The position numbers and the translations under genes were made by a program. A stretch of DNA of 64,000 nucleotides from Verrucomicrobiia bacterium (GTDB lineage: Bacteria > Verrucomicrobiota > Verrucomicrobiia > Opitutales > Cerasicoccaceae). Of the stretch, positions 6,221 to 24,674 are shown piece after piece. The notes under the pieces are model-generated. The model was not told where the DNA came from and did no database searches. It saw only the letters and a list, made by a program, of their open reading frames with translations. Where the stretch lies: assembly GCA_030425485.1 (NCBI GenBank), contig JAUIAM010000015.1, positions 1 to 64,000 on the forward strand. Direction: 5' to 3'. Position 1 is the stretch's first letter; each line of letters starts with the position of its first letter.

Positions 6221-8242
6221 TTAACCGCCGGTCATTTCGCTGTAGCGGAGCCAGTCCTGAATGGCGGCTTCGAGGTCGATGCGGATGGGGATGTCGAGCA
6301 CGATGGGGACGGTGGCGCCGGCGACTTGCGAGCTGCCCTCGACGTGGATCTCCACCCGCGGTGTATCCCCTGCGCGTGGATGGACCTGGAGCTGGAAGGC
6401 GTCAAGCCGGAGGTCGCGCAGGGCGAGCTCGGTCACGAGGGTTTCACCGCCGGGGAGCTGAAAAATCTCATCGATACGCTTGCCCGCGACGAGCTCGTCA
6501 ACCTGCTCGGCGCTCATGCCGCTGAGCTGCCAGGAGCCGCGCGCGATACTGAGCGCACCCGGGCTGCCGCCATCCATGCTGAGTTGCCCCTGCTGGATGA
6601 GGACTTGGCCTGCGTGTAAGCTGGCGTTGAGCTGGCCACTGATTTTTCCGCTGATAATGCCCTGAAAGTCGGGGATGAGTTGAGCCAGTTGCTCGGCGTC
6701 GACGTGCTCGAGCACGAGAACAGCGCGGACGTCCTGCGGATTGTCGAGCGGCGCGAGGATGCGGGTCTTGATTTTACCACCGAGAAAGTGGGTGTTGAAG
6801 CGGACGTCGGCCTGGGGGGATTGCTCGCTGCCGGGCTGGAGTTCGAAGAGGATGTTGCTGTCTTCAAAGGTGTATTGGCCGACGCTGAGCGAGGCGAAGT
6901 GCAGCTGCTGGGCGATGTCCGTGGCGGGCGGTAGCAGGCTGGAGAGGGCGATGTTTCCGCTAAGGTCGGTGAGCTCCGCCTGATAGGCGGGGGCCTGCAT
7001 GTTGGCCTGGAGGAGGTTGAAGTTCACGGTGCCGTCGGGCAGGCCGTTGTCCCAGCGGAGGGTGGACTTGGCCGAGAACTCGCCCGCGAGTGAGGTGTCG
7101 CCCTGACTGGCAGTAAAGGCCTGGGCGGGGATGGCGAGCTTGATGCGGTGGCCGGGGGTGAAGTTTTGAAAGTCAAACGCACCGATGGCAGCCAGGCTGA
7201 CCGTGCCCTCGGGCAGCGCGGCGCGGAGCGTATCCCGGTAAAAGGCAGGCTGCTGCAGGGTGATGTCGAGCCGCTCGCCTCCGCGCAGCTCGGCGGTAAA
7301 CTTGCTCCAGCTCATGCCACTTTGCTCATAGGTGGCCTGGGCAAAGTCGAGGGTCAGCCAGAGGTGTTCGGGGACGCTGCCTCTGCCGCTGGCACCGAGG
7401 GCGAGGTTGAGGTAGCCGAAATCATAAGGTGGGAGTTCGAGCGTGCCTTCGGTATTGGCCAGGATGAGGGCCCAGTGGGCGGGGCGGGCGTTCTCAATGG
7501 CGAGGGCGGCATCGAGTTGGAGCGGGCCGGAGCTGAAGTTAACCGCCTGAAAATCCTCGGGCATGAGTGAGGCGTAGGGCAGCAGGGCGGGGGAGAGCTC
7601 ACTGAACTCAAAGGTCAGCGTGACGTCGCCATCGGCGGTGGCAAGCTGCAGGTCTGCGCCGAGGGTAAAGGCGCTGGTGGGGCCTTCGCCAATGAGGTTG
7701 AGCTGGCAGTCTTTCCCGCCGCGGAAATTAGCCTGCAAGTCCCAACTGAGGGAGTGCTGCCCGAGGTGTACCCTGAGCTGGCTGTCGGCCAAGAGGAGGC
7801 GATCGAGCGGGATTGCCGAGGGGAGGGTCTCGCGAAGTGAACTTTCCGCAGGCGTGCTATCGGTAGGCTCGTGCGGGCTGGGCGCAAGCAGGGCGTCTAG
7901 CTGGATGTCGGCATTGAGCCCGGTAATGATAGCCGACTCCAGACGCCTGGAAAGCAGGCTTAGCGGGTCGTAGGCGAGCTCGATATGCGCAATACTGAGG
8001 GCGTGGCCTTGCCAGGTAAGGTGCAGGTTTTCCACCTGCAGGCTGGTCAGACCGAGATGGCTAATACTGAGGTGGACGTCCTCCATGTCCATCGCGGACA
8101 GGCGTTCGCGCAAGAGATGCGCCAGGGGAAGGCGTCCCCACCAGGGTGCCGTGAGCAGGGCCAGCAGGCAGGCTGCAAAGAGCCCGGAGCCGACGAGGCA
8201 CAAGCGGCGAAAGCGGTGAGGTGGTGTTGGCGTAAGTGTCAT
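6221..8242 (-). CDS. YdbH-like AsmA-family envelope protein
   Basis: A 673-residue protein with one N-terminal membrane anchor (residues ~12-32) followed by a long beta-rich periplasmic region typical of AsmA-like bridge proteins. The C-terminal part (residues ~540-665, from GQLSMDGGSPGALSIARGSW to VPIVLDIPIRIDLEAAI) resembles the C-terminal domain of E. coli YdbH, which helps move phospholipid between inner and outer membranes together with TamB and YhdP. It lies 27 bp downstream of the LolA-like gene on the same strand. The family is judged from overall pattern, so the assignment is moderately secure. Confidence 0.65.
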   Translation of the reverse strand: MTLTPTPPHRFRRLCLVGSGLFAACLLALLTAPWWGRLPLAHLLRERLSAMDMEDVHLSISHLGLTSLQVENLHLTWQGHALSIAHIELAYDPLSLLSRRLESAIITGLNADIQLDALLAPSPHEPTDSTPAESSLRETLPSAIPLDRLLLADSQLRVHLGQHSLSWDLQANFRGGKDCQLNLIGEGPTSAFTLGADLQLATADGDVTLTFEFSELSPALLPYASLMPEDFQAVNFSSGPLQLDAALAIENARPAHWALILANTEGTLELPPYDFGYLNLALGASGRGSVPEHLWLTLDFAQATYEQSGMSWSKFTAELRGGERLDITLQQPAFYRDTLRAALPEGTVSLAAIGAFDFQNFTPGHRIKLAIPAQAFTASQGDTSLAGEFSAKSTLRWDNGLPDGTVNFNLLQANMQAPAYQAELTDLSGNIALSSLLPPATDIAQQLHFASLSVGQYTFEDSNILFELQPGSEQSPQADVRFNTHFLGGKIKTRILAPLDNPQDVRAVLVLEHVDAEQLAQLIPDFQGIISGKISGQLNASLHAGQVLIQQGQLSMDGGSPGALSIARGSWQLSGMSAEQVDELVAGKRIDEIFQLPGGETLVTELALRDLRLDAFQLQVHPRAGDTPRVEIHVEGSSQVAGATVPIVLDIPIRIDLEAAIQDWLRYSEMTGG

Positions 8243-8269: not shown

Positions 8270-9058
8270 TCAGCGGTCACTGAAGTAAGAGTCAAACACA
8301 CCCTTATTGGGAATAACAGAATCCCACAAAATCACCTGCTCTTCGCCGTCGCCGGAGCGGGTGCGCACCTCGTAGGCAATGGGGATGCCCTCGACGAAGC
8401 GGTAGTCGCTATAGAGGCTGCTGATGACCTTTTCACCCGAGTCGCTGGGAAAGGTGACAACGCGCTTGAGTAAGGTGCCGGTTTCCTTTTCGAGGTAAAA
8501 GACTTCTTTGCCGGGCATGTTGGGGCGTTGAACTTCGACCACGTAGCACGGCGTGCCCTGAACGCGGGCATCATTAAGCAGGGTGTAGGTGTAGCCCGAG
8601 CGCTTGTAATGAATCAGGGGATCGATGAAGTCGGCCTCTCGGATGACAACATCGCGCTCCTCCAGGCCGAGCTCCATGCGGGGGAGGCGCTGACCGTCCA
8701 GCTCGCGGCGCACCCAGGCGCGGATGCCGTCGTAGCCGATGACCATGCGCATGTTGCCCTGCTCCAGCACAACCCGCGACATATTGGGCTGCTTCTGGAC
8801 GTTGACGATTTCGAAGACCTTTTTGTCGCCCTCGAAAATCGCTCCCGTGTAGGTCAAGCTGGCGACTTGGACAAGCCGTGCCTGACCGCCTCGACTCTCG
8901 ATGTACTCATCGAGCACTTTAATCAAAGCCGGATCAGTGACCGTGCCTGCCTCCTCAGCTTTCAACCCGGAGAGGAGGAACAGGCCGTAAAACAGGACGA
9001 GGAATGGGAGTATTGGGCGCATGTTGGGTGTATCAATCGGCAGGGCGAGTTGTTTCAT
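8270..9058 (-). CDS. LolA/LolB-fold outer-membrane lipoprotein-sorting-like protein
   Basis: About 262 residues from the ATG at 9058 (GGGGA lies just upstream); an ATG at 9022 would begin exactly at the signal peptide MRPILPFLVLFYGLFLLSG. The mature part has the half-barrel pattern of LolA-like proteins: an early YIESRGGQARLVQVASLTYTG, a central VIGYDGIRAWVRRELDG and later strands KEVFYLEKETGTLLKR and YRFVEGIPIAYEV. Such proteins bind lipids or lipoproteins in the periplasm. With the YdbH-like gene downstream it may form a small lipid-handling unit. Confidence 0.65.
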   Translation of the reverse strand: MKQLALPIDTPNMRPILPFLVLFYGLFLLSGLKAEEAGTVTDPALIKVLDEYIESRGGQARLVQVASLTYTGAIFEGDKKVFEIVNVQKQPNMSRVVLEQGNMRMVIGYDGIRAWVRRELDGQRLPRMELGLEERDVVIREADFIDPLIHYKRSGYTYTLLNDARVQGTPCYVVEVQRPNMPGKEVFYLEKETGTLLKRVVTFPSDSGEKVISSLYSDYRFVEGIPIAYEVRTRSGDGEEQVILWDSVIPNKGVFDSYFSDR

Positions 9059-9120
9059 TAAGGGATTTCCCCGCCTGAGTGACAACTGTATTCGCCCTGC
9101 CGTGTGTGTGGTGGTACTTA

Positions 9121-11526
9121 TCAGGCTAAAACCTCGTAATCGATCTGGATGTCGAAGTCGTCCATGCCTGCGTCGGCGGTGTTGGGGATCTCGACACGGC
9201 GGTCGGCCAGGTCTTGCCCGTCGTCGGGCAGGATGACGGCACCTTCGCCTGCGCCGATCTCGTGCGCGTTGTCTCCGATGGTGGCGCGGTTGGTTCCGTC
9301 GAAGCGGTTGATGTCCAGCGCGCCCGAGGCGATGGCCGTATCGTTGTTTTTCACGATAGCCCGCGTGATGATGGCGTTGGCTGGCAGGGTGTCGCGGCTG
9401 GAGCTGGCCACGTAGGCCGCGCCGCCGTTTGCATCGAGACCAAATGCCCGCAGCGTGCCACGCTTCTGCGGGTGGCTCCAGGTGGCACCCGTTACCGAAA
9501 GCAGCCCGTCGTAGTGGTTGCTTGACTGGTCCTTCGGCTGGTAGCCGACGCCCTCACCAAAGCGATAAGACCCGACCGCACCCACATTGGTAATGGTAAT
9601 ATCCTTGAAGTAGATTTCGTTATCATCCACTGCACCTGTCGCCGTGAAGACCTGGTCATTCCCGTCGTACAATTCGATTTGAGGTGTTGCGTAATTCGGC
9701 TGTATGAAAAACTCAATATAAGTCCAAGTACCAACTACGCTGGTGAATGCCCCATCGCCGGTAGCGCCAGTCGATCTCACATTACCGACCAATAATTCAG
9801 TAAAGGGGTCGGTGAACTGAGATGCTGAATCCAAGTGGCTTTGAAAATCGAAGCCATCGACGGCGGTATTATCGCTCGGTATGTAATACCACATCGAAAC
9901 CTTGTAAGTCTGCCCAACTTCAAACGCGCCCAAGAAACTAAAATAGTGGTTGCCCAACGTACCCGCAGCGGGATAGCAACGCAGCACGCCATCAAAGCTT
10001 GTTACGCCGTCGCTGATACCGTTGACTTCATCTACGGTAGCATTGTTAGTTCCCGCATCCGATGCTGCGTATACCGTGCTATCGGCCGGTGTGGCCCAGC
10101 GTAAAAAAGGCTTAACCGCGCCGTTGCCGATGGCGTCAGGCGTGAGGGCGAGGTTATAAACGTCCAGCGCTGCGACTGCGCCCTTGAAAAACTGATCTGC
10201 CGTTCCGTTGTTGTTTCGGGCCGCCAGATAGAGCGCGGGCACACTGGCCGCACTCATATCAAGCGAGCTGATGTCCTCCGCTGAGCCGTAGGCCGTGCCG
10301 TTGACGTAGAGCTGCATCTCGTGCGCGGCGGTGTCGATGGCCACGAGCAGCCATGTCCAATCGCTAGCGCCGTCCGAAAAATAGGCCACGCTGGTGTGGG
10401 TGACCGTGCTCGTGCCGTCGCCAATCGCGATCACAATTTGACCGCTGGAGTTGACTGACAGGGTAAAGGTATCGTCACTCGCGTCCGTCGCGCCGATGAG
10501 GGTCTGCGAGCCGGAAGGCTGGCCGTCGTCGAGCTTGACCAGGAGACTGATAGTGGCGTTGCCCGCGAAAATACCAGAAAGCGAGGCGGGCAATCCGACA
10601 TACCCTGTTGCCCCGCTGAAGAGCACAGCCGGGGGTTCAGCGCGATTCTGGTCGATGAGTGCGTTGACCTCTGCCTGGGTGTACTTATCCAGATCGGTGA
10701 TGTCGCCCTCGGTGTGCGTGTGCGAGGCGTTGGCCTTACCAGAAAGCCCGGCGTCTACGTAGGCTTTGACGCTCTGCTGGGAGGGAGCCTGGGCGGCAGT
10801 GTCGCTGGACATGTCGTCCTCGTCGATCAAGTCCGTGGTTGCGATGTCTCCCAACCCGAGGTTGTCCCGTGCCGAGCTGGTATCGGATATATCAGCCAGG
10901 TTTTGGCTGCGCTGGGCATAGCGCGCGTCTGACTGGACGGTATTATAATAATCCTCACCCGGAGCATCGAGGTCGGGGCCACCGGATTGGCTGAGGCCTC
11001 CGCCCAATACGCGGATGCGCCCTGCGCAGACAGTGCGCGTCTGGCCCGGGTCATCATTGGTGGTGATGGCGATGGTCAGCCAGCGATCACCCGCGGCGAT
11101 GTTGCTCTCGCTGGCACTGAGCGCAATTTGCGCGTGACAGTGCGCGGCCTCATCGGTTTCCCACTGAGGCTGGGTCAGTCCGGTGTTCAAGGCGCTGGCG
11201 GCAACCGTCTTGCTGCGAATCGGGCTCAGGCTGAGGTCGGGGCCGCGCAGGTCGTAGTTGTCCAACTCGTCATCTTCATCGTTGTCGGTGTCGTAGCGTT
11301 CGATAACGCTCAGGTCCATCGGCTTGATCTCCATCGTGACGGAGGCAATGCCGGAAAGGTCCTGCAGCGTGCCGTTGTTAAAGAAGCCGAGCTCAAACTG
11401 CACATCGTCCCCGGCGCGGAATTTCGGCACATAGCCGTCGAGGTCAGCGCGCAGAAGGTCGCTGAAGTTAGTAAAGGAAAACAGGTCCGCCTGAATGCGG
11501 ATACGGGTTTTAGGAATGCTGCTCAT
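9121..11526 (-). CDS. Phage tail-fibre-like protein with LamG domain
   Basis: An 801-residue protein, last of the phage cluster. Residues 1-~190 form a beta-rich domain with no name I recognise. Then comes a tail-fibre style segment (NLADISDTSSARDNLGLGDI, QQSVKAYVDAGLSGKANASHTHTEGDITDL), a LamG/concanavalin-like domain (residues ~298-470, with LYVNGTAYGSAEDI), a second carbohydrate-binding-like beta region (~480-640) and a C-terminal region. Such proteins normally sit at a virion tip and bind surface glycans. It is odd that a receptor-binding-type protein remains while every tail-assembly gene is missing. Confidence 0.7.
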   Translation of the reverse strand: MSSIPKTRIRIQADLFSFTNFSDLLRADLDGYVPKFRAGDDVQFELGFFNNGTLQDLSGIASVTMEIKPMDLSVIERYDTDNDEDDELDNYDLRGPDLSLSPIRSKTVAASALNTGLTQPQWETDEAAHCHAQIALSASESNIAAGDRWLTIAITTNDDPGQTRTVCAGRIRVLGGGLSQSGGPDLDAPGEDYYNTVQSDARYAQRSQNLADISDTSSARDNLGLGDIATTDLIDEDDMSSDTAAQAPSQQSVKAYVDAGLSGKANASHTHTEGDITDLDKYTQAEVNALIDQNRAEPPAVLFSGATGYVGLPASLSGIFAGNATISLLVKLDDGQPSGSQTLIGATDASDDTFTLSVNSSGQIVIAIGDGTSTVTHTSVAYFSDGASDWTWLLVAIDTAAHEMQLYVNGTAYGSAEDISSLDMSAASVPALYLAARNNNGTADQFFKGAVAALDVYNLALTPDAIGNGAVKPFLRWATPADSTVYAASDAGTNNATVDEVNGISDGVTSFDGVLRCYPAAGTLGNHYFSFLGAFEVGQTYKVSMWYYIPSDNTAVDGFDFQSHLDSASQFTDPFTELLVGNVRSTGATGDGAFTSVVGTWTYIEFFIQPNYATPQIELYDGNDQVFTATGAVDDNEIYFKDITITNVGAVGSYRFGEGVGYQPKDQSSNHYDGLLSVTGATWSHPQKRGTLRAFGLDANGGAAYVASSSRDTLPANAIITRAIVKNNDTAIASGALDINRFDGTNRATIGDNAHEIGAGEGAVILPDDGQDLADRRVEIPNTADAGMDDFDIQIDYEVLA

Positions 11527-11617
11527 GGTGGCGGATGGCGTGAAAGATTGTGTGCGTATGGCGAGGGGTATGTGGTGTCGTGAAAAAATGGATACGGTGC
11601 CTGGTCTGATGGCACAG

Positions 11618-12079
11618 CTACAGGCCGCGCAGGTCGCGTCCGGTTGTGCGCTGCTCGCGCTTGCGGGCGACAGTCAGCCCAAAGCTGGTCCGGACCTCGG
11701 GGGCGTCCTCCGGCTCATCGGGCAGACTGACGGGGAGCTCCCCGTCGCGCACGCGGTCCAGCACGTCCTGCGCCTCGGCGATAAAATCCATTTGCTCTTC
11801 GGTGAGCATGATGCCACCGATGCGCCCGGGCAACTGTGCCAGCACAAGCAGGCAGGCCGTGCGCTTTAGCTCCGGCGGAATGGCGGAGACATTTTCAGCC
11901 AGTGCGTTCGTCGGCTGGCTACGGATGGCCGAGCGGATGCTGGCCGTCGTGTCGTCGAGTGCGGGCGTGAGCGGGTCGCTGCTCTGCCCTCGGCTACTGC
12001 GTGTCAGCAGGGTCTCTGCCTGAGCGGCGTTGAGGTGGGCTTTAATGTCGTCTTCGCTTAGAGTAATCCAGGTCTTCAT
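11618..12079 (-). CDS. Mu gp36-like (DUF1320) head-tail protein
   Basis: A 153-residue protein starting WITLSEDDIKAHLNAAQAET, the usual opening of gp36/DUF1320 proteins (short Thr-Glu start, then a helix). The central helical part (ELKRTACLLVLAQLPGRIGG) and the following segment MLTEEQMDFIAEAQDVLDRV fit the family, which occupies the head-completion/neck position after the major capsid gene in Mu-like phages. It follows the capsid gene by 57 bp on the same strand. Family judged from position and pattern. Confidence 0.6.
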   Translation of the reverse strand: MKTWITLSEDDIKAHLNAAQAETLLTRSSRGQSSDPLTPALDDTTASIRSAIRSQPTNALAENVSAIPPELKRTACLLVLAQLPGRIGGIMLTEEQMDFIAEAQDVLDRVRDGELPVSLPDEPEDAPEVRTSFGLTVARKREQRTTGRDLRGL

Positions 12080-12136
12080 GGTAAAAAAAAGAGTGGGGAG
12101 GGCGGGTAGCTGGGCCGTCCGCCCTCCCGGTTGGGG

Positions 12137-13078
12137 TTAGGATTCGCTGATGGCGAGCTTGCGCACGCCCAGGTCGCTGGTCACGACCACGTTGCTGTAG
12201 TGTTCGACCGTGAGGTCGGTGTACTTGGTGGATTCTTCGAGGTAGACGCGGTAGCTGCCGCCGCCGTCTACCGGCGTGACGAAGCGCTTCAGGTTCGACG
12301 GCTCGTCCTTGGTTACGCCGCTTTGCTCGTAGAAGGCATAAACGGCGTCACCCACGATGCCCGACTTTGCGTCGGCTGCGCTCTGATAGCGCGCCCCCGC
12401 GATGCGCACACCCTCAACGAGGAGCTTGCGCGCCAGGCTTTCGGGGTCGAGCGGCAGCGAGCCAAACGCGCCCGCCGTGGTCTGCGCCTCATAGGAAGCC
12501 GCGCGGATGTCCCACGCACCTTCGCCAAAGAGCAGGCGGTTCGGGCGCACACCGCTGAGGTCGGTTGCCGCGATGAGCTCGGCGCGGATATCCGCGTCCG
12601 GCGTGGCACTGTCGTCCCAGGTCTTGTTGGCAGAGACAGCGGCGCTGTCGAGCATGGCAATGGCTCGGCGAAGCTCGTTGCGCAGCAGGCGCTGGAGCAA
12701 GAGCTGGACGTAACGCTCCTGCCAGTCGTCGCCGTAGACTTCGTCATGGTCGATGCGCATGGTCAGGCCCTTGTTGAGGGTCTTCGTGCTCACGGTTTCG
12801 CCGCTGTACTCGACGCGCTTAAAGGCGCTGCCGATCGCGCGCACGTCGTCCGTCTCGGAGAAAAAGGCCTCGGCGTTGGTGGCCTGCTTGAACTCGAAAC
12901 GGCGGCCGACATCCACGCGCGGAGCGATGAAGTCGAGCAACTCGTCGAGTTTTGACGGGTCTTTCCAGCCCACCGTGAACGCAGTCAAGGGCTCGGAATA
13001 GTGGGCGGCATCGAAGCGGCTTTCGTTAGCCACGGCGATTTCGCCGGAGTCGGGTTGGGTAAGGTTTTTCTGTGTCAT
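12137..13078 (-). CDS. Phage major capsid protein
   Basis: About 313 residues from the ATG at 13078; an upstream GTG at 13117 overlaps the previous stop and is less likely. The N-terminal part (FDAAHYSEPLTAFTVGWKDP, DFIAPRVDVGRRFEFKQ) and the later GLTMRIDHDEVYGDDWQERY and LLRNELRRAIAMLDSAAVSA read as an HK97-fold capsid protein of the kind with the 'P-domain' helix of paired arginines. The gene sits directly after the cement gene, as in other phage head modules. It would form the shell into which the terminase packages DNA. Confidence 0.75.
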   Translation of the reverse strand: MTQKNLTQPDSGEIAVANESRFDAAHYSEPLTAFTVGWKDPSKLDELLDFIAPRVDVGRRFEFKQATNAEAFFSETDDVRAIGSAFKRVEYSGETVSTKTLNKGLTMRIDHDEVYGDDWQERYVQLLLQRLLRNELRRAIAMLDSAAVSANKTWDDSATPDADIRAELIAATDLSGVRPNRLLFGEGAWDIRAASYEAQTTAGAFGSLPLDPESLARKLLVEGVRIAGARYQSAADAKSGIVGDAVYAFYEQSGVTKDEPSNLKRFVTPVDGGGSYRVYLEESTKYTDLTVEHYSNVVVTSDLGVRKLAISES

Positions 13079-13116
13079 GGTAATGGATGTTGGTTGACGT
13101 TGTATCGGAAAAGTCA

Positions 13117-13656
13117 CTACGCCTGCTCGATCATGATGAGCTTGTCCGGAGCGGCTTCGAGGGCTGTGGCCAGGCTGTTCAAGTCCGTGGCTGGCGTGCC
13201 GACAAAGGCGTTGAGAACCAATGTCTTGCGCGGAGCGATCGGCATGACCTCAAGTGGCGAGCCATTACCCGAGGCAGGAGTTAAGGCCCGCCCGACGTGG
13301 TAGTAGGTGCCTGCGATGGATGGCTGGTCCTGGACGAGTCCGTTGGCTGCGGTGTAGACGTCCTCGCCGGCGCTGATGGCTTCACTGGCCACCATGAGCA
13401 CGGTGCTCGGACTGTTGCTCAGCAGGCAGACGTTGACCGCTCCGGCCTCTTCGCCCGTATCGGTGATGACGCCGAGAGGCAGGTCTGATGCGTCGCAGAC
13501 AGCGACCTCGTTGGCCTGGCTGCCCTGCGTGCCGATCAGGTTACGGGTGCTTACACTGCTATCAAGCAGGCGGGTGACTTGTCCCTGATGCGTGCCTTCG
13601 GCCACGTTGGAGAAGACCGGGAGGCGATGGAATAAGATTTTGATGAATCGAATCAT
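13117..13656 (-). CDS. Capsid cement/decoration protein (DUF2190-like)
   Basis: A 179-residue beta-rich protein between protease and capsid genes. The segment AISAGEDVYTAANGLVQDQP with a following VGRALTPASGNGSPLEVMPI is typical of small decoration proteins that stabilise HK97-fold shells. The C-terminal part (ATDLNSLATALEAAPDKLIMIEQA) is helical. The stop lies 39 bp before the capsid ATG. In its 5' gap lies a near match to the GTATC-N9-GATAC palindrome (13711-13729). Confidence 0.6.
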   Translation of the reverse strand: MIRFIKILFHRLPVFSNVAEGTHQGQVTRLLDSSVSTRNLIGTQGSQANEVAVCDASDLPLGVITDTGEEAGAVNVCLLSNSPSTVLMVASEAISAGEDVYTAANGLVQDQPSIAGTYYHVGRALTPASGNGSPLEVMPIAPRKTLVLNAFVGTPATDLNSLATALEAAPDKLIMIEQA

Positions 13657-13710
13657 GATGTTTTGAATTTTTGGGTTAATTATTCTCCAGATGCGGTAGG
13701 GGAGTGTGCC

Positions 13711-13729
13711 GTATCAGAAAGTTGAATAC
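13711..13729. promoter_or_regulatory. GTATC-N9-AATAC, one mismatch from the bipartite palindrome
   Basis: GTATC at 13711-13715 and AATAC at 13725-13729 with the same 9-bp spacing as the exact copies. It lies in the gap between the protease stop (13732) and the cement gene start (13656). Confidence 0.35.
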
Positions 13730-13731
13730 AT

Positions 13732-14832
13732 CTAGCTGATGAAAAGCTGGTCGTAGAGCTCGGGGCGGTCGCGCTTGAGCTGCGACCACGCCGTGGTAAA
13801 GTCTTCACCTGTGGTGTCCGCGCGCTCGTTAACCAGCGCGAGGAAGTCGCGCCGCTTCTGGATACGTGGCTGGCGCTGGCCCAGGCCGTCGGTGCGCGGT
13901 CGGGTGGTGAGTTGGCAGGCACTGTTGCAGAGCTCCTTCAGACCGCTATCAAAGTCTGACTCCAGCCCCTTTTGCCAAGCTTCGCGCTCGTGGGGAAGGA
14001 TGCGTCCGCGTAGCAAGGCGTGGTCAAGCAGCAGGTCTATACGGGCCTGCCGCTCGTTGGCCAGCGCTTCCTGAGCGCTTTCGCGTGCTTTGTCGCTCTC
14101 GCAGGCGATGCGGTAAAAGCGTTCGTTCTCGGCCGTAAGCTCGTCATTGCCCTGAGCAAGCTCGCCGCCCTCGGCTTCCCAGCGCCGGGCGTTAGCGGCC
14201 AGGGCGCGGCAAGCGGCCTGCCAGTCGCCCTCCGGGTCAACACCGATCAACTCCAGTACGTCAATGGCTTCCACGCTCGCGGGGTATTCCTCCTCATTCG
14301 CCGAAGCTTCAGCCTCGGCCTGCTGTAGTGATTCTGTGGATACAGACTGGTTGGCGATGGCTTCGCCGGGGATGTTGGGCTGATTCGTTAGTCCAATGGA
14401 GATCAGGCGTACGGGCTCGTAGGTGTCGCCGTCAAGATGGCGCATGGCCCAGCGGGGCGAGAGGAACTTATAGAAGGCGTTGCTCAGCAGGTCTCGCCCG
14501 GCTTGTGACCAGCGGGGCAGGATGTACAGGCCATCCTCGCGGGCCTGCATGTCGGTTATCCAGGCGTAGGCGCGGGTGTCGCTGTGGCCGTTTTGGCCGG
14601 AGAATCCCGGGTCGTCGGGGTGGCCGATGTAGACGGGGAGACCGCCAAATCTGCGGGCGAGCTTGCCGCGCAGCGATTTGAAATAGCCGACCATCTGCTC
14701 GGCGGCTTCGTGGGTGAGCTGTTGCAGGCCGCGCGGGTGGGGCCAGTTGCCGTACTCGGCCAGGCGCAGCCAGCCGCCAGTGGCGTTGGGCCATTCGTTG
14801 GATACGCCGATTGTAATGCTGTCTTCTTTCAT
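13732..14832 (-). CDS. Mu gpI-like prohead protease/scaffold
   Basis: A 366-residue protein of the Mu I-protein family. The N-terminal ~160 residues carry the family landmarks: GGLPVYIGHPDDP, AYAWITDMQAREDGLYILPRW, AFYKFLSPRWA and LISIGLTNQPNIPGEA. The C-terminal half is long, helical and charged, as expected for a scaffold domain cut off during maturation. It is placed between portal and cement genes. The start lies in a 42-bp gap that also holds a near match to the GTATC palindrome. Confidence 0.75.
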   Translation of the reverse strand: MKEDSITIGVSNEWPNATGGWLRLAEYGNWPHPRGLQQLTHEAAEQMVGYFKSLRGKLARRFGGLPVYIGHPDDPGFSGQNGHSDTRAYAWITDMQAREDGLYILPRWSQAGRDLLSNAFYKFLSPRWAMRHLDGDTYEPVRLISIGLTNQPNIPGEAIANQSVSTESLQQAEAEASANEEEYPASVEAIDVLELIGVDPEGDWQAACRALAANARRWEAEGGELAQGNDELTAENERFYRIACESDKARESAQEALANERQARIDLLLDHALLRGRILPHEREAWQKGLESDFDSGLKELCNSACQLTTRPRTDGLGQRQPRIQKRRDFLALVNERADTTGEDFTTAWSQLKRDRPELYDQLFIS

Positions 14833-14854
14833 GGTTTTAGTGTCTTGAAAATGT

Positions 14855-14873
14855 GTATTGATAAAGTGGATAC
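14855..14873. promoter_or_regulatory. GTATT-N9-GATAC, one mismatch from the bipartite palindrome
   Basis: GTATT at 14855-14859 and GATAC at 14869-14873, spacing 9 bp, in the short gap between the portal stop and the protease start. The centre is AT-rich like the exact copies. Confidence 0.35.
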
Positions 14874-14874
14874 G

Positions 14875-16077
14875 TTATGCTTTAGGGGCTTGGTCTTTTC
14901 CCAGAATACGCCGCGTCAGATTTGCGATGACGCGCGGGATGGCCGTGCTGACAATGTCCCGGGCCGTGTCGAGTTCCTCCGCTGAGAGACCGCTCTCTTT
15001 GTGTTTGATAACGACACGGGCACGCGGCTGGTCGCTCTTAAACAGATAGCGCAAGACAGTGCGGTCGATCTGGGTATGGAGCGTGCCGGCAATGTGCTGG
15101 GCGTCCTCGCGCTCGATCAGTGCGGTTTCTTTACCCTGGAGGGATATGCCGGCGCCGGAGTCGACCACCGTGCCCATACTGCTACCGCGCCAGAGGGTGG
15201 CGATGGCCTTGTCCATACGGTCTACGAGTGCCGGGTAGGGCAGCTCGCCGCTGCCGCGCAGGTCGATGGCTTCGATCTCGGTCCCGCGCGACATGAGGGC
15301 GTGAAACTCTGCTCCGAAGTCCTGCACGGCCTCCCTCGCCGCCTCCCACTCTGGCGTGCCGGGGGCGGCATCGGTGACGCCCCGTACGCCGGGCATGCCG
15401 TTGCGCTCGCAGTACACCAGCCAGTCGCGCAAGGGCAGGTGTTTAAAAAGGTAGGCAATGGCCGTCGCCTCCATGAGCCCGTCGCCGGTGGTCACGAGCC
15501 AGCCGTCCTTGTCCAGCGTGCGCCCCTCAATGGCGTTATCGCTCTCCAGGAAGCGCAGGGCTCCGGTGCGGTTTTCCATAAACCATAGGGGGACGAAACG
15601 CAGGTCAGCCGTGAGCAGGGTCCGTGGCATGGCGGGGTCATCGCTGCTTGGGGTGTTGATCGGCTTCCATACGATTTCGTGCACGGCGTAGCGCTTGCCG
15701 ATAGCGTCCATCATCTGGCGTACGAGCAGGGAAAACCCACCGCTCTCGTTCAAGTCGCAGGCGTGGGTGGCGGTGAGTTGGCGGTAGAAAAACTCCAGCG
15801 CGCTGCGGTGGCGCTTGGCCTCGTCGGAGTCGTCAAAGGTTTCCACCTCCCAGCCGAAGCGACCAATGGCTTTCTTGCGTTTGGTGGCGACGGCCTTGAC
15901 GACATCATCGCGCTGCTCGATAGCCTCCCAGGCGAGTGCCGCTGTGCGCAATTCGCCAGCGTGAAAGGCGTCCAGCATGCGCACGAGCGAGTCGGGCGTG
16001 AGGTGGCGTATGGGGTTAAAGCGGGCGCGACGAGAGCTCAGGGCGCGGCCTTGCGGGATGAGGGATGCGGTTTTCAT
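14875..16077 (-). CDS. Phage portal protein (Mu gp29-like, DUF935)
   Basis: A 400-residue protein. It opens with the DUF935 pattern (FNPIRHLTPDSLVRMLDAFH, then ALAWEAIEQRDDVVKAVATKRKKAI), continues through a central GDGLMEATAIAYLFKHLPLRDW and YCERNGMPGVRG, and has the later ISLQGKETALIEREDAQHI helix. Portal proteins form the dodecameric ring at the unique capsid vertex through which DNA is pumped. It lies 35 bp downstream of the terminase gene. The length is slightly shorter than Mu gp29, but all regions look present. Confidence 0.8.
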   Translation of the reverse strand: MKTASLIPQGRALSSRRARFNPIRHLTPDSLVRMLDAFHAGELRTAALAWEAIEQRDDVVKAVATKRKKAIGRFGWEVETFDDSDEAKRHRSALEFFYRQLTATHACDLNESGGFSLLVRQMMDAIGKRYAVHEIVWKPINTPSSDDPAMPRTLLTADLRFVPLWFMENRTGALRFLESDNAIEGRTLDKDGWLVTTGDGLMEATAIAYLFKHLPLRDWLVYCERNGMPGVRGVTDAAPGTPEWEAAREAVQDFGAEFHALMSRGTEIEAIDLRGSGELPYPALVDRMDKAIATLWRGSSMGTVVDSGAGISLQGKETALIEREDAQHIAGTLHTQIDRTVLRYLFKSDQPRARVVIKHKESGLSAEELDTARDIVSTAIPRVIANLTRRILGKDQAPKA

Positions 16078-16112
16078 GGTGTCGATAAACAGTGGGATTG
16101 GCGGGAGGCGGG

Positions 16113-17483
16113 TTAGCGCCGGGCGTTGGCCGGCATGGATTCGTAGTGGCTGGAGGCAGCGGGACTGCGAGCGGCGTGCAGTGCCAGAGCGAGGGCCCAG
16201 AAGCGGTCGGCGTGGCCGTTGGCCCCGCGGTCGGCGGTAAAGCGGATGTTACCGCTCTCGGTGGATTCTTTTTTTATGGCGCGCAGGTCGGCGCGGATAA
16301 ATTTGTCCGCCGGGATGCGCAGCGTGCGGTCTTCGAAGCGACAGCGCACCGGGTAGGCTAGCGTTTCCTTCAGGCTGGCGGTAAAGGTGAGGCCCTCGAT
16401 CCGGTAGGCGCCGTAGCGGCTGGCAGCACGCTCGGCGAACTGCCGCCCCAGGCCGCTCTGGTCGATGCAGGCGCGTCGTAGGTTGGGCAAAGCGAGGTAG
16501 GCGTCGAGGATTTCTTCCTGCTCGGAGAAAGGCGTCTGGCGCAGGGTTTCCACGCGGCGCGTCATGAGGATGTCGCCGACGCGCTCCACGAGCCAAAAGA
16601 CGGTCAAGTCATGCTCGCGTCCGAGATCTACACCGAGATAGAGCTCGCCCCGTGTGGGCTTGGCTTGTGGTCCGAGCGGGAGCTCCCAATCGCTGCCATC
16701 CTGATACTCGCAGGCGGCAATCAGGTTCCACGGCAAAAAGGCCGAGACGTCATCAGCAGGTTTGCAAAGGTACTCCTGTTGGAAAGATTCCTCGTCGGCG
16801 CAGGAGCTGCGAATAAAGTCGTAGTAGGCCGCTTCGTCCATCTGTTGGCGTGGGTCATCTTCGGGCAGCTTCTGCTTCAGCTTGTTAAGTAAGCCTTGTT
16901 CCAGCGCGTCTTGCAGGGTGACGCGGTGATGGGAGAAACCCATCGGGTTACCGCGCTCGCGGATGTCGGTTACCAGGCGATTGAAGAAGTTCTGCGACCC
17001 ACGGTGGGTTGAAATGATTTCCAGTTGCCCGCCCCAGGTGATGCCAGGGTAGGCGATGGTGTAGAGCTGCCGCGGGTCCGGGTGCAGGGCAAACTCGTCC
17101 AGCAGTCTGCTGCCGCGCTTGCCAGCCTGGGCATCGGGATTGCTGGAGAGGCAGTGCAGGCGTGAGCCGCTGGCAAACTCCAGCACATAGGCCGAGTGGG
17201 CGCGCTCGCCGAGCACGGTGCATCCCAGGTCGCGGGCGGCGAGGTCGAGGATGCGGGCAAAGGCCTTGGCGTCTTCCAGAAAAAGTTTGGCCTGCGCCTC
17301 GTCGCGGGAGGATATCCACGCGTCGAGCCGGCTCCGGGAATCAGCCTGAGAGCGCACCGTGCGGTAGGCCGCCGTCCAGCTCATGCCGATCTGGCGCGAC
17401 TTCTCCATCAGCTTGAGCCGGGACTTATCCTCGATCCAGCGCTGTTGGTAGGGCAAGAAAAAGGTGGAATCTACGCTGCTCAC
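16113..17483 (-). CDS. Phage terminase large subunit (Mu gp28-like)
   Basis: About 456 residues. I chose the GTG at 17483 because AAAGGAGG lies just upstream (17488-17495), the clearest Shine-Dalgarno in the phage cluster; an earlier in-frame start at 17558 would add an unrelated leader. The ATPase domain has an adenine-binding LPYQQRWIEDKSRLKL, a Walker A-like EKSRQIGMSWTAA and a Walker B-like GSRLLDEFALH. The RNase-H-fold nuclease domain begins LYLGVDLGREHDLTVFW with the metal-binding Asp. It would translocate and cut phage DNA during packaging. Two exported-protein genes sit upstream on the opposite strand. Confidence 0.8.
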   Translation of the reverse strand: MSSVDSTFFLPYQQRWIEDKSRLKLMEKSRQIGMSWTAAYRTVRSQADSRSRLDAWISSRDEAQAKLFLEDAKAFARILDLAARDLGCTVLGERAHSAYVLEFASGSRLHCLSSNPDAQAGKRGSRLLDEFALHPDPRQLYTIAYPGITWGGQLEIISTHRGSQNFFNRLVTDIRERGNPMGFSHHRVTLQDALEQGLLNKLKQKLPEDDPRQQMDEAAYYDFIRSSCADEESFQQEYLCKPADDVSAFLPWNLIAACEYQDGSDWELPLGPQAKPTRGELYLGVDLGREHDLTVFWLVERVGDILMTRRVETLRQTPFSEQEEILDAYLALPNLRRACIDQSGLGRQFAERAASRYGAYRIEGLTFTASLKETLAYPVRCRFEDRTLRIPADKFIRADLRAIKKESTESGNIRFTADRGANGHADRFWALALALHAARSPAASSHYESMPANARR

Positions 17484-17487
17484 GCTG

Positions 17488-17495
17488 CCTCCTTT
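17488..17495 (-). promoter_or_regulatory. Strong ribosome-binding site of the terminase gene
   Basis: Reads AAAGGAGG on the minus strand and ends a few bases before the GTG at 17483. It decides the start of the terminase gene. The other phage genes lack such a strong site. Confidence 0.65.
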
Positions 17496-17569
17496 GAAAA
17501 GGGCGTAAAAACCCGGGCAGGGAGCCTGCTCCTTGACACTCGCTGAGCACGACGACACAATGTGTTGCC

Positions 17570-17929
17570 ATGAACGCGATCGTACGCCTCATGATTATCA
17601 CGGTCTGTATCGGTTGGCTGATGCACCCGCTCGCTGCACAAAATAGTGGAGTGACCACGCGCAAGCAAACGTCCCAACAGGAGCTTCCCAGTGTGAATAC
17701 AAAGCTTAACCAGCTCATTCAGGGCCAGGGGGGGCGCTATGTGTTTCTCGTGTCGCAGGGCGAGTTGATCCGGCTCGATACGCAGACCGGTAAGGTCGCT
17801 TTCTATAACCTCGTGGCTGGGGCCGCGTGGTATACGCTGGATATTCCCGATAAGACCGTGAGGCCGGGCAATGCCTTCTACGAGCAGTATGTCCAGGTCC
17901 TGGACAAAATCGATTTCAACACGAATTAA
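17570..17929 (+). CDS. Small exported protein inside the phage cluster (paralogue A)
   Basis: A 119-residue protein with a clear signal peptide (MNAIVRLMIITVCIGWLMHP, cleavage near LAAQ). The mature part holds RYVFLVSQGELIRLDTQTGKV followed by a GAAWYTL strand. The next gene encodes a similar protein with LIRFDSATGEY and GAWVAVEL, so the two look like diverged duplicates. No family name is known to me. It lies on the strand opposite to the phage genes, between terminase and the gp27-like gene, the arrangement expected of 'moron' cargo genes. The antisense frame across both is rejected because it has no family signal. Confidence 0.65.
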   Translation: MNAIVRLMIITVCIGWLMHPLAAQNSGVTTRKQTSQQELPSVNTKLNQLIQGQGGRYVFLVSQGELIRLDTQTGKVAFYNLVAGAAWYTLDIPDKTVRPGNAFYEQYVQVLDKIDFNTN

Positions 17930-17956
17930 CCCCTCACCTACGGAAAGATTATCCAC

Positions 17957-18325
17957 ATGAAATACATCGAACGCATCATCATGCTCCTGCTCATTATCGC
18001 CGTCGGCGTGCTCGCCTACGGCCAGTCTGCTCCGGATAGCGAGCCGCATAGTGCGCAGAAAACGCGCGGCGATTTTAAGGAAGTGGAGCCCGTCGAAACC
18101 AGTGGACTGATTATCGGCCCGGGCCGCTTCGAACTGGAAATGACGCCCACTACGCAGGGGCAGCGCGCCGTCCTCATCCGCTTCGACTCCGCCACGGGTG
18201 AGTACGCCGTGCTGGATACCGAGCTGGGGGCATGGGTCGCCGTGGAGCTTCCGCTCATCAAGCCGCAGGGCCGATACGACAACGACGCGCACATTCGCCT
18301 CATCAGCGATATGGTCTTTGAGTAG
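17957..18325 (+). CDS. Small exported protein inside the phage cluster (paralogue B)
   Basis: A 122-residue protein with a signal peptide (hydrophobic RIIMLLLIIAVGVLAYG). The shared core with its neighbour is GRF...RAVLIRFDSATGEYAVLDTELGAW by pattern. It starts 28 bp after the preceding stop, so the two are probably one transcript, and ends 5 bp before the convergent gp27-like gene. It is expected in the periplasm. Function unknown. Candidates are superinfection exclusion or a host-fitness cargo, both by analogy of position only. Confidence 0.65.
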   Translation: MKYIERIIMLLLIIAVGVLAYGQSAPDSEPHSAQKTRGDFKEVEPVETSGLIIGPGRFELEMTPTTQGQRAVLIRFDSATGEYAVLDTELGAWVAVELPLIKPQGRYDNDAHIRLISDMVFE

Positions 18326-18330
18326 GCCGT

Positions 18331-18918
18331 TCATAGCAGTTTCAGGAGTTGTTCGATTTCGTGGAGGGTGTCTTGCCGGATGCCCTCTGCGCCCTCGCTT
18401 TTGCTGAGTACGCTGAGGATTTCGGCCTTCTTGACCTGGCGGTCTTCTTCGTCGCGCTCCTGGTCATGAACCTTCAACTCCAGGTTCTTGATCTGGGTGG
18501 AGGCAGACATCAGTTTCTGGATAACGGAAGCGAGGGTGTTCATGGTGGGAAGCTCCTCCTTCATCTTGGCTTCGTTGTCGTCCAAGGTTTTATAAACTAG
18601 GTCCCAGGCGGCCTCCATGGCACCGCTGGCTTTGGTATGGCCGGGGCAGACGCGGGAGAGGATTTCCAGCGTGCGGCGGTTGGTGTTCTTCAGGTGATTG
18701 AGGTGCAGGTTAAAAGGCTCGGGGATGGCGACCGTCGAGGGGGCAGGGCAGTGAGCCCCGCCCGCCTCTGGGTCGTTGTGCCGGATGTCCCCCGTCTGCC
18801 CTTGTCTGTTGGCCGACGCGGTGGGCCCGTCCGGTGCGGGGGTCTTGTTACTGCTATGGCTACTCTGGTCTGTCCCCTTGTCCGGTTGCCCGGAGAAAAC
18901 TGTCGTTTCTGTATCCAT
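18331..18918 (-). CDS. Mu gp27-like phage protein (DUF3486-like)
   Basis: A 195-residue protein with a disordered, polar N-terminal ~65 residues and a helical C-terminal part (LEILSRVCPGHTKASGAMEA, then MNTLASVIQKLMSASTQIKN). It sits upstream of the terminase large subunit where Mu carries gp27; proteins there are thought to help DNA packaging, possibly as a small terminase-like partner. An exact GTATC-N9-GATAC palindrome overlaps its start codon. Identity rests mainly on position and helical pattern. Confidence 0.5.
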   Translation of the reverse strand: MDTETTVFSGQPDKGTDQSSHSSNKTPAPDGPTASANRQGQTGDIRHNDPEAGGAHCPAPSTVAIPEPFNLHLNHLKNTNRRTLEILSRVCPGHTKASGAMEAAWDLVYKTLDDNEAKMKEELPTMNTLASVIQKLMSASTQIKNLELKVHDQERDEEDRQVKKAEILSVLSKSEGAEGIRQDTLHEIEQLLKLL

Positions 18919-18929
18919 GTTTTCGATAC
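18911..18929. promoter_or_regulatory. GTATC-N9-GATAC palindrome at the gp27-like start codon
   Basis: GTATC at 18911-18915 and GATAC at 18925-18929. The minus-strand start codon at 18918-18916 lies inside the motif, a place where a bound protein could block transcription or translation start. Confidence 0.5.
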
Positions 18930-18952
18930 GGTAAAAGTTGTCGTAGGGGTGA

Positions 18953-19219
18953 CTAGGAGGTCAGGCCTTGCTCATCCAGGTAGTCCTGGCCGGCGGCGGT
19001 CACACGGTGACGCTTGTCAGAGGGGTCGATGTCGGGCACATGGCTCTCGATCAGCCCCTTGTCGCAGAGGTAGGCCAGCTCCTTGAGGAGCGCCTTTTGC
19101 TTGATCTCGAATCCGGCGGCGTGGACGCCCTGCAGGAGGGTGTCGGCGGGTAGAGAGGTGGGTGCTGCGGCCTCGAGCTGGAGCAGAATGGCCTGACGTA
19201 GTAATTGGTTTCGTCTCAT
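18953..19219 (-). CDS. Small winged-helix-like phage protein
   Basis: An 88-residue protein: an N-terminal helix (NQLLRQAILLQLEAAAPTSL), then a helix-turn-helix style segment (ALLKELAYLCDKGLIES), a wing-like strand pair (KRHRVTAAGQDYLDE) and the end. The pattern fits the short winged-helix proteins found just upstream of gp27/gp28 in Mu-like phages. It could bind DNA as part of packaging or of late-gene control. Position is between the holin-like and gp27-like genes. Confidence 0.55.
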   Translation of the reverse strand: MRRNQLLRQAILLQLEAAAPTSLPADTLLQGVHAAGFEIKQKALLKELAYLCDKGLIESHVPDIDPSDKRHRVTAAGQDYLDEQGLTS

Positions 19220-19259
19220 GGATGAATGTCGTGTATGGGTCGTGAAGAAAGGCTTGGGG

Positions 19260-19703
19260 CTAGGTGCGGTTGGCGAGGGAACCGCCGAAGTAGAGGCCGA
19301 TAATTGCGCTGAGCAGGTGGGTATCCAGCGGGGTCATGACGAGCCCGTTGAGGGTAATCCACTGGGTTTCCTCGGTGTCAGAAGTGAAGAACAGGAAACC
19401 CTCGCTGATCTGGGTAAAGGCCACGTGAACGGGTGTGCCCGGCATCCACACGGCGACGATTTTCGGAAAGGCCACGATGAAGAACACGGCGATGAGCGCG
19501 ATGGCGCGGCGCGTCCACTGGAAGCCTGTATTGGAAAACTGACGGGCGGCTTCGACATGCTTGAACTTCTCGTTCATGGCCTGGATGCTCAGCAGGCGCT
19601 CCTGGCGTTTGTTTTCCTGCGAGGTGGCGATGAGCTTCATCACGCCGCCGAAGAGCGATGAGCCGAGGAGGGTGACGAGTTCCGTGGGAAAAGGTGCGAT
19701 CAT
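19260..19703 (-). CDS. Holin-like phage membrane protein
   Basis: About 147 residues from the ATG at 19703; an upstream start at 19784 adds a polar leader. It has a short amphipathic N-terminus (PTELVTLLGSSLFGGVMKLI), a charged linker (SQENKRQERLLSIQAMNEKF), a strong hydrophobic segment (RRAIALIAVFFIVAFPKIVA) and a C-terminal weakly hydrophobic stretch (LLSAIIGLYFGGSLANRT). This matches the layout of three-segment holins. Holins open the inner membrane for lysis. No endolysin or spanin gene is near, so its current role is uncertain. Confidence 0.5.
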   Translation of the reverse strand: MIAPFPTELVTLLGSSLFGGVMKLIATSQENKRQERLLSIQAMNEKFKHVEAARQFSNTGFQWTRRAIALIAVFFIVAFPKIVAVWMPGTPVHVAFTQISEGFLFFTSDTEETQWITLNGLVMTPLDTHLLSAIIGLYFGGSLANRT

Positions 19704-19941
19704 GGGAGGGTTTGATTGAGATGGAGGGAGGCGGTATTGCCCCGTTGGCGATGCCGATATTATCACGGATTTTTTTCCCGGCAACGAATCGGTTGGCTTG
19801 GTTTGAACGGTTGGAATTTATACCTGAATTGTTGGGTAATCCTATCGGCTAGTGCCTTGTACTAAATGCATCGCGTGCGTTATCCCGATTGCCCCATGGC
19901 TTGCTCGTGCTATAGTCCCAACTCTGTTTGTCCCCATTGCT

Positions 19942-23582: not shown

Positions 23583-24674
23583 ATGAAGGTCGTCTTCCGC
23601 AAGAAGGTATTTGATCACGGGCACGGGTTGCCGCCGGGGCAACTGGTGCGTGTCGATCAGTCACTCAAGCCGGACAAGGTGCGCATCCGCCTCATGGCGT
23701 ACAGTGCGGAAGAGTTTGTTGAGGTGGAGGACATCTCGCTGGACGAGCTCCGGCAGCAACTGGAGAACTGGCCGGTATGCTGGGTACATGTCTATGGAGT
23801 GGGGGACGAGGAGCTTATCCGTAAACTGGCCAAACTGCTCAGCATCCACTACCTGGCTACGGAGGAGATTCTAAACACCCGCACCCGTCCGAAGTTTGAG
23901 GAGTACGGGCGCGATCTCTTTGTCGTGACGAAGTCTGCCCAGCTCTTTCAGGATGAGCGCGAAATTCATATCGAGCAGGTATCTTTTTTCGTCAGCAACA
24001 ACGTCCTCCTGAGTGTACAGGAAAGCACGGACGAGCTCTTTACGCCGGTACTAAACCGGGTGCGGGAGTGCTCCGCCCGCCTGCGCAGCCGCGGCACGGG
24101 TTACTTGCTCTTTGCGCTGCTTGACATCAAGAGCGACGGCATCCTCTCCATTCTCGATATGGTCGAGGCGGACATCGTGGAGGTCGAGGAAGACCTGCTC
24201 GGTGAGGATGAGGACTTTAGCATCGAAACTATTTATCGCCATAAGCGTGTGGTGTTGGCCATTATGCGATTTGTGCTCCCGATGCGCGACAACGCCCATC
24301 GCCTGGAGGTGATCGACCACCCGCTGGTGCATGAGGAAGACCACTACTTTTTCCGCGACTTGGCGGATAATACCCGGCGGGCGGCGGACCGCATCGAGCA
24401 TTCGCGTCTCATCCTGCAGAACATGCAGGAGTACTACCACCTGATGGAAGAGCACAAGAACAACAAAATCATGAAGGTGCTGACCATTATCGCTACGCTC
24501 TTTCTGCCGCTGACCTTTATCGCGGGCGTGTACGGGATGAACTTTGACCACGAGGTTAGCCCGTGGAATATGCCCGAGCTCTACATGCGCTACGGCTACC
24601 CGCTATGCCTGCTGTTTATGTTCTGTTTCTTTGCGGGCATGCTCATGTGGTTCCGCAAGATGAAGTGGATTTAG
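23583..24674 (+). CDS. corA: Magnesium/cobalt transporter CorA
   Basis: A 363-residue protein with the CorA layout: a long cytoplasmic alpha/beta domain, a coiled stalk helix (HLMEEHKNNKIMKVLTIIAT) and two C-terminal membrane helices. The signature YGMNFDHE follows the first helix, and the second helix is followed by the basic end WFRKMKWI. CorA pentamers carry Mg2+ (and Co2+ or Ni2+) into the cell. No regulatory element is seen in the short gap from the subtilase gene, so it probably has its own promoter there. Confidence 0.95.
   Translation: MKVVFRKKVFDHGHGLPPGQLVRVDQSLKPDKVRIRLMAYSAEEFVEVEDISLDELRQQLENWPVCWVHVYGVGDEELIRKLAKLLSIHYLATEEILNTRTRPKFEEYGRDLFVVTKSAQLFQDEREIHIEQVSFFVSNNVLLSVQESTDELFTPVLNRVRECSARLRSRGTGYLLFALLDIKSDGILSILDMVEADIVEVEEDLLGEDEDFSIETIYRHKRVVLAIMRFVLPMRDNAHRLEVIDHPLVHEEDHYFFRDLADNTRRAADRIEHSRLILQNMQEYYHLMEEHKNNKIMKVLTIIATLFLPLTFIAGVYGMNFDHEVSPWNMPELYMRYGYPLCLLFMFCFFAGMLMWFRKMKWI

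Follow-up and report, generated by a model that had tools for sequence, protein, structure and literature searches.

A Mu-type head gene block inherited across the order Opitutales is probably a domesticated DNA-packaging system with a progressively reduced tail

Recognised families of gene transfer agents (GTAs) come from Alphaproteobacteria and spirochaetes (PMC9662315). The GTAs of Rhodobacter capsulatus (RcGTA, Rhodogtaviriformidae), Bartonella and Brachyspira are built from phage-derived head and packaging genes that descend vertically under selection, form a clade apart from phages, lack mobility genes at their locus and are sometimes split between loci. All of these features recur in a block of ten Mu-type genes at positions 9121-19703 of the 64,000-nucleotide stretch analysed here (the window), which comes from a Verrucomicrobiia bacterium of the family Cerasicoccaceae, order Opitutales (assembly GCA_030425485.1, contig JAUIAM010000015.1; genome G000 below). 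Unlike those GTAs, the block has a Mu-type head derived from a transposable phage, lies in another phylum and has a reduced or absent tail. The literature searched, which excluded subscription papers, describes no GTA of Verrucomicrobiota, an absence that falls short of proof. The block has a single origin, descends vertically with the host genome and is maintained by purifying selection on its core head genes. It is probably a DNA-packaging particle that was domesticated long ago, functions in the manner of a GTA and has progressively lost its tail.

The nearest free relatives of the block are two Mu-like siphophages, G276 and G282, from IMG/VR. The two phages have in common the gene order winged helix-turn-helix protein, large terminase (TerL), portal, protease, cement, major capsid protein (MCP), gp36, c2, a protein of ~310 aa (presumed tube protein), c0, fibre, tape measure and hub; the block follows this order apart from the ~310-aa protein and the tape measure. 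Unlike the block, these phages have a MuA/MuB module, gpF or gpG, the ~310-aa presumed tube protein and a tape measure. G282 encodes gpF as well as proteins of MuA and MuB type, and the G276 tape measure matches PF10145 (7e-22); in G282, the 533-aa tape measure is identified from its position alone, and a simple gene caller did not resolve the terminase and gp27. The block likewise shares its head gene order with active Mu-like prophages, but not their complete tail or, at the locus and flanks, their MuA/MuB genes.

All ten minus-strand genes, from holin-like to fibre, are open and free of internal stops, and the core block genes match Mu-type families in Pfam and PHROG profile searches. A preliminary description of the sequence had reported ten open Mu-type genes with host genes directly on both sides, which frames, family matches and flanks bear out (Table 1). 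It had also called the block collinear, which does not hold strictly: two small plus-strand open reading frames, sA and sB (17570-18325), were overlooked and lie within the minus-strand block between gp27 and the terminase.

Evidence for vertical descent includes the distribution of the block, its phylogeny and its neighbours. Among 273 sampled genomes of the order (Opitutales/Puniceicoccales, Verrucomicrobiota), 91 have portal relatives and ~77 carry the block, as counted by separating block-type portal matches by score and identity. The block is usually present in one copy and spans 13 groups at family level; in five of these groups genome size is ~0.7-1.1 Mb. Its loci in relatives were delineated by homology-based gene calling. 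Carriers include Cerasicoccus arenae, C. maritimus and C. frondis as well as Puniceicoccales and other Opitutales metagenome-assembled genomes. A sample of 338 genomes from the phylum yielded few portal matches outside the order, which lie in larger open frames like phage portals and were judged mostly without gene neighbourhoods. Two IMG/VR contigs, L147 and L148, carry copies of the block beside housekeeping-like genes named by eye (leucyl-tRNA synthetase-like, exonuclease III-like) and resemble fragments of chromosomes that were wrongly filed as viral.

A portal and capsid tree separates 31 block copies from 22 Mu-like phages and prophages by one branch (SH-aLRT 99), although the search was quick and several deep forks are open. 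Families f1, f17, f21 and f26 are recovered in the block tree and, as far as sampled, also group in the rpoB tree. Mantel correlations with rpoB distances are 0.87 for TerL, 0.71 for MCP, 0.58 for the protease and 0.45 for the portal (p ~0.001 or less). Flanking genes are kept across genera and families: the window genus shares CorA with Cerasicoccus, LolA after the fibre with f21 and the downstream YdbH-like gene with f5. The next gene in f21 resembles it by eye, with no Pfam match.

Relaxed selection, raised in the preliminary description, is not what the core genes display: dN/dS is far below 1 for terminase, portal and capsid. Values by the NG86 method, which are approximate because many dS estimates approach or exceed 1, are 0.03-0.14 for the portal, 0.02-0.26 for the capsid, 0.06-0.25 for the terminase and 0.05-0.21 for the protease, beside 0.08-0.21 for the flanking CorA gene. 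Between Cerasicoccus frondis and C. maritimus, which have only the head part at the locus, dN/dS is 0.044 for the portal and 0.036 for the capsid. The Walker A, Walker B and nuclease aspartate residues of the terminase are conserved in all block copies compared. Contig ends aside, none of the 41 TerL and none of the 57 MCP genes at named loci is short. Three of 71 portals from named genomes are in pieces inside a contig, and one portal from the order-wide portal search has an internal TAG.

The preliminary description had listed transposition, integration, head-tail joining and tail-assembly genes as missing. This holds across G000 for gpF, Baseplate_J and the tail hub, none of which has a match anywhere in that genome, and these searches found no interrupted Mu-type tail elsewhere in it. 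For the mobility genes it holds for the locus and flanks: MuA/MuB are absent there, no genome-wide search having been made; transposase genes were checked, and integrase and replication genes are lacking, at the block locus. Among 24 block-bearing genomes, gpF occurs in one and Baseplate_J in one, each away from the block. Blocks have no tape measure, and the ~310-aa gene is absent from nearly all of them (L147 retains a version). Tape-measure matches, all below the Pfam cut-off, occur only in G000, G020, G039, G083 and G054; none was found in G129, three Cerasicoccus genomes or the 0.7-1.1 Mb genomes, all of which carry the block.

The sole tape-measure-like match in G000 belongs to an unrelated prophage of lambda type on contig C54, which encodes a GpA terminase, a portal and a serine recombinase of its own. 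This separate siphophage prophage (20001-60000; L232, L233) has a lambda-family portal and tail genes; a related tape-measure region occurs in G020, and G039 has matches. The single-contig genome G083 contains four tape-measure-like genes at a constant spacing of exactly 35,720 bp (C1:4487448, 4523168, 4558888 and 4594608; L237-L239). Over 24 kb, sequences offset by this distance are 97% identical, which indicates a tandem prophage array or an assembly artefact.

What remains of the tail differs among lineages. Families f7, f10, f17 and f25-f27 retain gp36, c2, c0 and the hub, and f7, f25 and f27 also the fibre. The predicted model of the hub (c1) resembles contractile-injection hubs, Mu gp44, T4 gp27 and VgrG; for c0 the match, to a fold of tube or neck-ring type, is weaker. 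The window genus retains head, gp36 and fibre, and G083 head and gp36. Three Cerasicoccus genomes lack gp36, and one Cerasicoccus genome, G069, has the head alone. G094 and G104 have only the head at the locus; their fibre-like matches map to other contigs, and in G104 a gpF match shares that contig. The block can also be split: in f5 (G031, G047) the gp36-c2-fibre half sits on another contig, and in f17 the terminase end and the portal lie apart.

A history that fits these forms starts with a transposable Mu-like siphophage, which an ancestor of the order would have captured once. Transposition and most of the tail would then have disappeared, and the remainder would have passed down with the chromosome as a module maintained by the host. 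Tail loss may have run from a long tail through a neck-ring-hub stub and a head plus fibre to a bare head. In such a particle, gp27, the large terminase and the portal would load host DNA into a protease-matured, cement-stabilised capsid, gp36 would close the portal and LamG-bearing fibres would bind a surface glycan. Lysis may release the particles, perhaps with the help of the holin-like protein. In lineages that retain hub and tube-ring genes, DNA might pass to kin through the stub tail; in the others, it might be released and taken up through ComEC. ComEC occurs in all 24 block genomes tested and in 10 of the 14 controls, so its presence does no more than permit this route.

The preliminary description had offered three readings: a GTA-like or capsid-only particle, a satellite using another phage's tail, and a very recent deletion. 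The first is supported by order-wide vertical inheritance, purifying selection, the lack of tail and mobility genes and intact terminase motifs. The last is rejected, since the same tail-poor block is common to 13 family-level groups, with low dN/dS and intact frames. A satellite or split element that borrows its tail might draw on the lambda-type prophage with tail genes that G000, G020 and G039 carry, and the division of the block over two places in f5 and f17 would suit it. It is nevertheless very improbable: the locus has neither integrase nor replication genes, is usually single, keeps its flanks and descends vertically, and the block persists in genomes with no detected gpF, Baseplate_J or tape-measure gene, including G129, the three Cerasicoccus genomes and those of 0.7-1.1 Mb that lack a tape-measure match. 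Decay is the published view of one copy. In 'Ca. Marcellius' two prophage regions were described, and that on scaffold_15, which encodes two Mu-like proteins and a terminase, was interpreted as a degraded remnant (PMC6920513). The record 'Puniceicoccaceae bacterium 5H scaffold_15' (L104) carries the block and is very probably the same locus, where the present comparison finds a conserved, selected module instead. Loss of mobility and tail genes, the fragmented portals and the internal TAG would all fit a prophage remnant left open by chance, but core-gene dN/dS of 0.02-0.26, the absence of broken TerL and MCP genes away from contig ends, a single origin and order-wide retention, even in 0.7-1.1 Mb genomes, make it extremely improbable. 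For the core head genes it is already contradicted, unless the low dN/dS is an artefact of saturation.

A further alternative is a domesticated capsid with a job other than transfer, such as storing DNA, serving as a decoy for phages or acting on competitors. The window genome has no tail, and purifying selection on the head genes persists in forms without gp36, fibre and tail, as in G069. However, terminase catalytic residues and the portal are conserved throughout, which points to DNA packaging, and most lineages retain fibres and the adaptor; a non-transfer role is therefore somewhat unlikely, and is open most of all for head-only forms. Several observations weigh against a DNA-transferring particle. 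Known GTAs have tails, whereas none is seen in the window genome, and heads that lack gp36 might fail to retain DNA. Correlation with rpoB is only moderate for portal distances, and gp27 (dN/dS 0.06-0.74) and cement (0.13-0.69) evolve fast, so partial relaxation is possible. RcGTA-type proteins have a signature of cheap amino acids (PMC9662315), which was not found here: the GC-adjusted effect on carbon per residue is -0.007 for the portal, +0.019 for MCP and +0.061 for TerL. Unlike RcGTA, the block is known from its genes, from which a particle, DNA packaging and transfer are predicted. Taken together, the evidence still favours a domesticated packaging particle: rather than a dead virus, the block is probably a cellular tool, which perhaps conveys DNA to kin. 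It would form a particle, take host DNA as cargo, be released and transfer that DNA; it probably works like a GTA, yet is not classed as one here.

Table 1. Genes of the block and neighbouring host genes in the window
Feature	Position	Strand	Evidence
Holin-like small membrane protein, 147 aa	19260..19703	-	open frame; phrog_38283 (unknown function) 7e-13
Winged-helix protein, Mu gp26 position, 88 aa	18953..19219	-	phrog_436 2e-6; syntenic in blocks and Mu-like phages
gp27-like, possible small terminase role, 195 aa	18331..18918	-	PF11985 0.01; syntenic
sB, small ORF, signal-peptide-like start	17957..18325	+	relative at same place in G083
sA, small ORF, signal-peptide-like start	17570..17929	+	relatives at same place in Cerasicoccus and G083
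Large terminase	16113..17558	-	PF17289 1e-13; phrog_2 3e-36; start maybe ~25 codons further in
Portal, Mu gp29 type	14875..16077	-	PF06074 1e-56
Head maturation protease, Mu gpI type	13732..14832	-	PF10123 3e-19
Cement or head decoration protein	13117..13656	-	PF09956 0.005; phrog_673 7e-10
Major capsid protein	12137..13078	-	phrog_1005 8e-12; ATG at 13078, longer GTG frame to 13117
gp36-like head-tail adaptor	11618..12079	-	PF07030 3e-4; phrog_195 1e-6
Fibre, LamG-type domain	9121..11526	-	PF13385 5e-15; conserved N-terminal anchor as in phage fibres
LolA-like host gene	8270..9085	-	PF17131 4e-5; next to fibre in f21 too
YdbH-like host gene	6221..8242	-	PF11739 3e-23; also beside split-off fibre half in f5
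CorA transporter	23583..24674	+	PF01544 2e-58; near block in Cerasicoccus too

Several gene assignments in the block draw on position as well as on family matches. The cement and gp27 identities have weak Pfam matches and are supported by conserved gene order in dozens of loci. The sole basis of the holin-like label is the phrog_38283 match together with apparent membrane segments; loci of Cerasicoccus, f10, f21 and f26 have relatives of this gene in the corresponding position. The N-terminal anchor of the fibre aligns with the fibre of the free phage G276. A PDB sequence search returned portal relatives (8rka, 9khx) and nothing useful for the capsid. Neither sA nor sB has a match in Pfam or in a defence-library search, none of the five proteins tested matches a defence system, and the relatives that occupy their place belong to other genera of the family, while the block loci of three genomes from the window's genus yielded none. 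The block genes have a GC content of 0.59-0.65, in line with the window (0.60).

Host genes adjoin the block directly, with the LolA-like and YdbH-like genes downstream and an S8 protease and CorA upstream. The S8 protease (19852-23496) contains a LamG-type domain (PF13385), as does the fibre. A recent exchange of this domain between the two is not supported, as direct BLASTP gave no significant similarity. In the close relatives L035 and L037, extra small genes without relatives in the window lie between fibre and LolA and encode a lipoprotein-like protein of 167-174 aa and a 154-aa protein, with a membrane-like 90-aa protein also in L035; they are possibly a lysis cassette.

The fuller proposal is that GTA-like particles occur order-wide, arose independently from a transposable Mu-like phage, are new to Verrucomicrobiota and have lost the tail stepwise while packaging is still selected, leaving a tailless DNA-filled capsid as a cellular tool. 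The chances of this whole picture are about evenly balanced. Blocks of this kind get logged as defective prophages, as in PMC6920513, or as viral contigs, as with L147 and L148, which is a warning for annotation. Culture-collection strains of Cerasicoccus carry the block, so it is directly testable. The graded loss of the tail raises the question of what use a selected DNA-packaging head has without one. If true, an independent, order-wide Mu-derived system that is kept in genomes of 0.7-1.1 Mb would bear on how often, and for what reasons, phage heads are domesticated.

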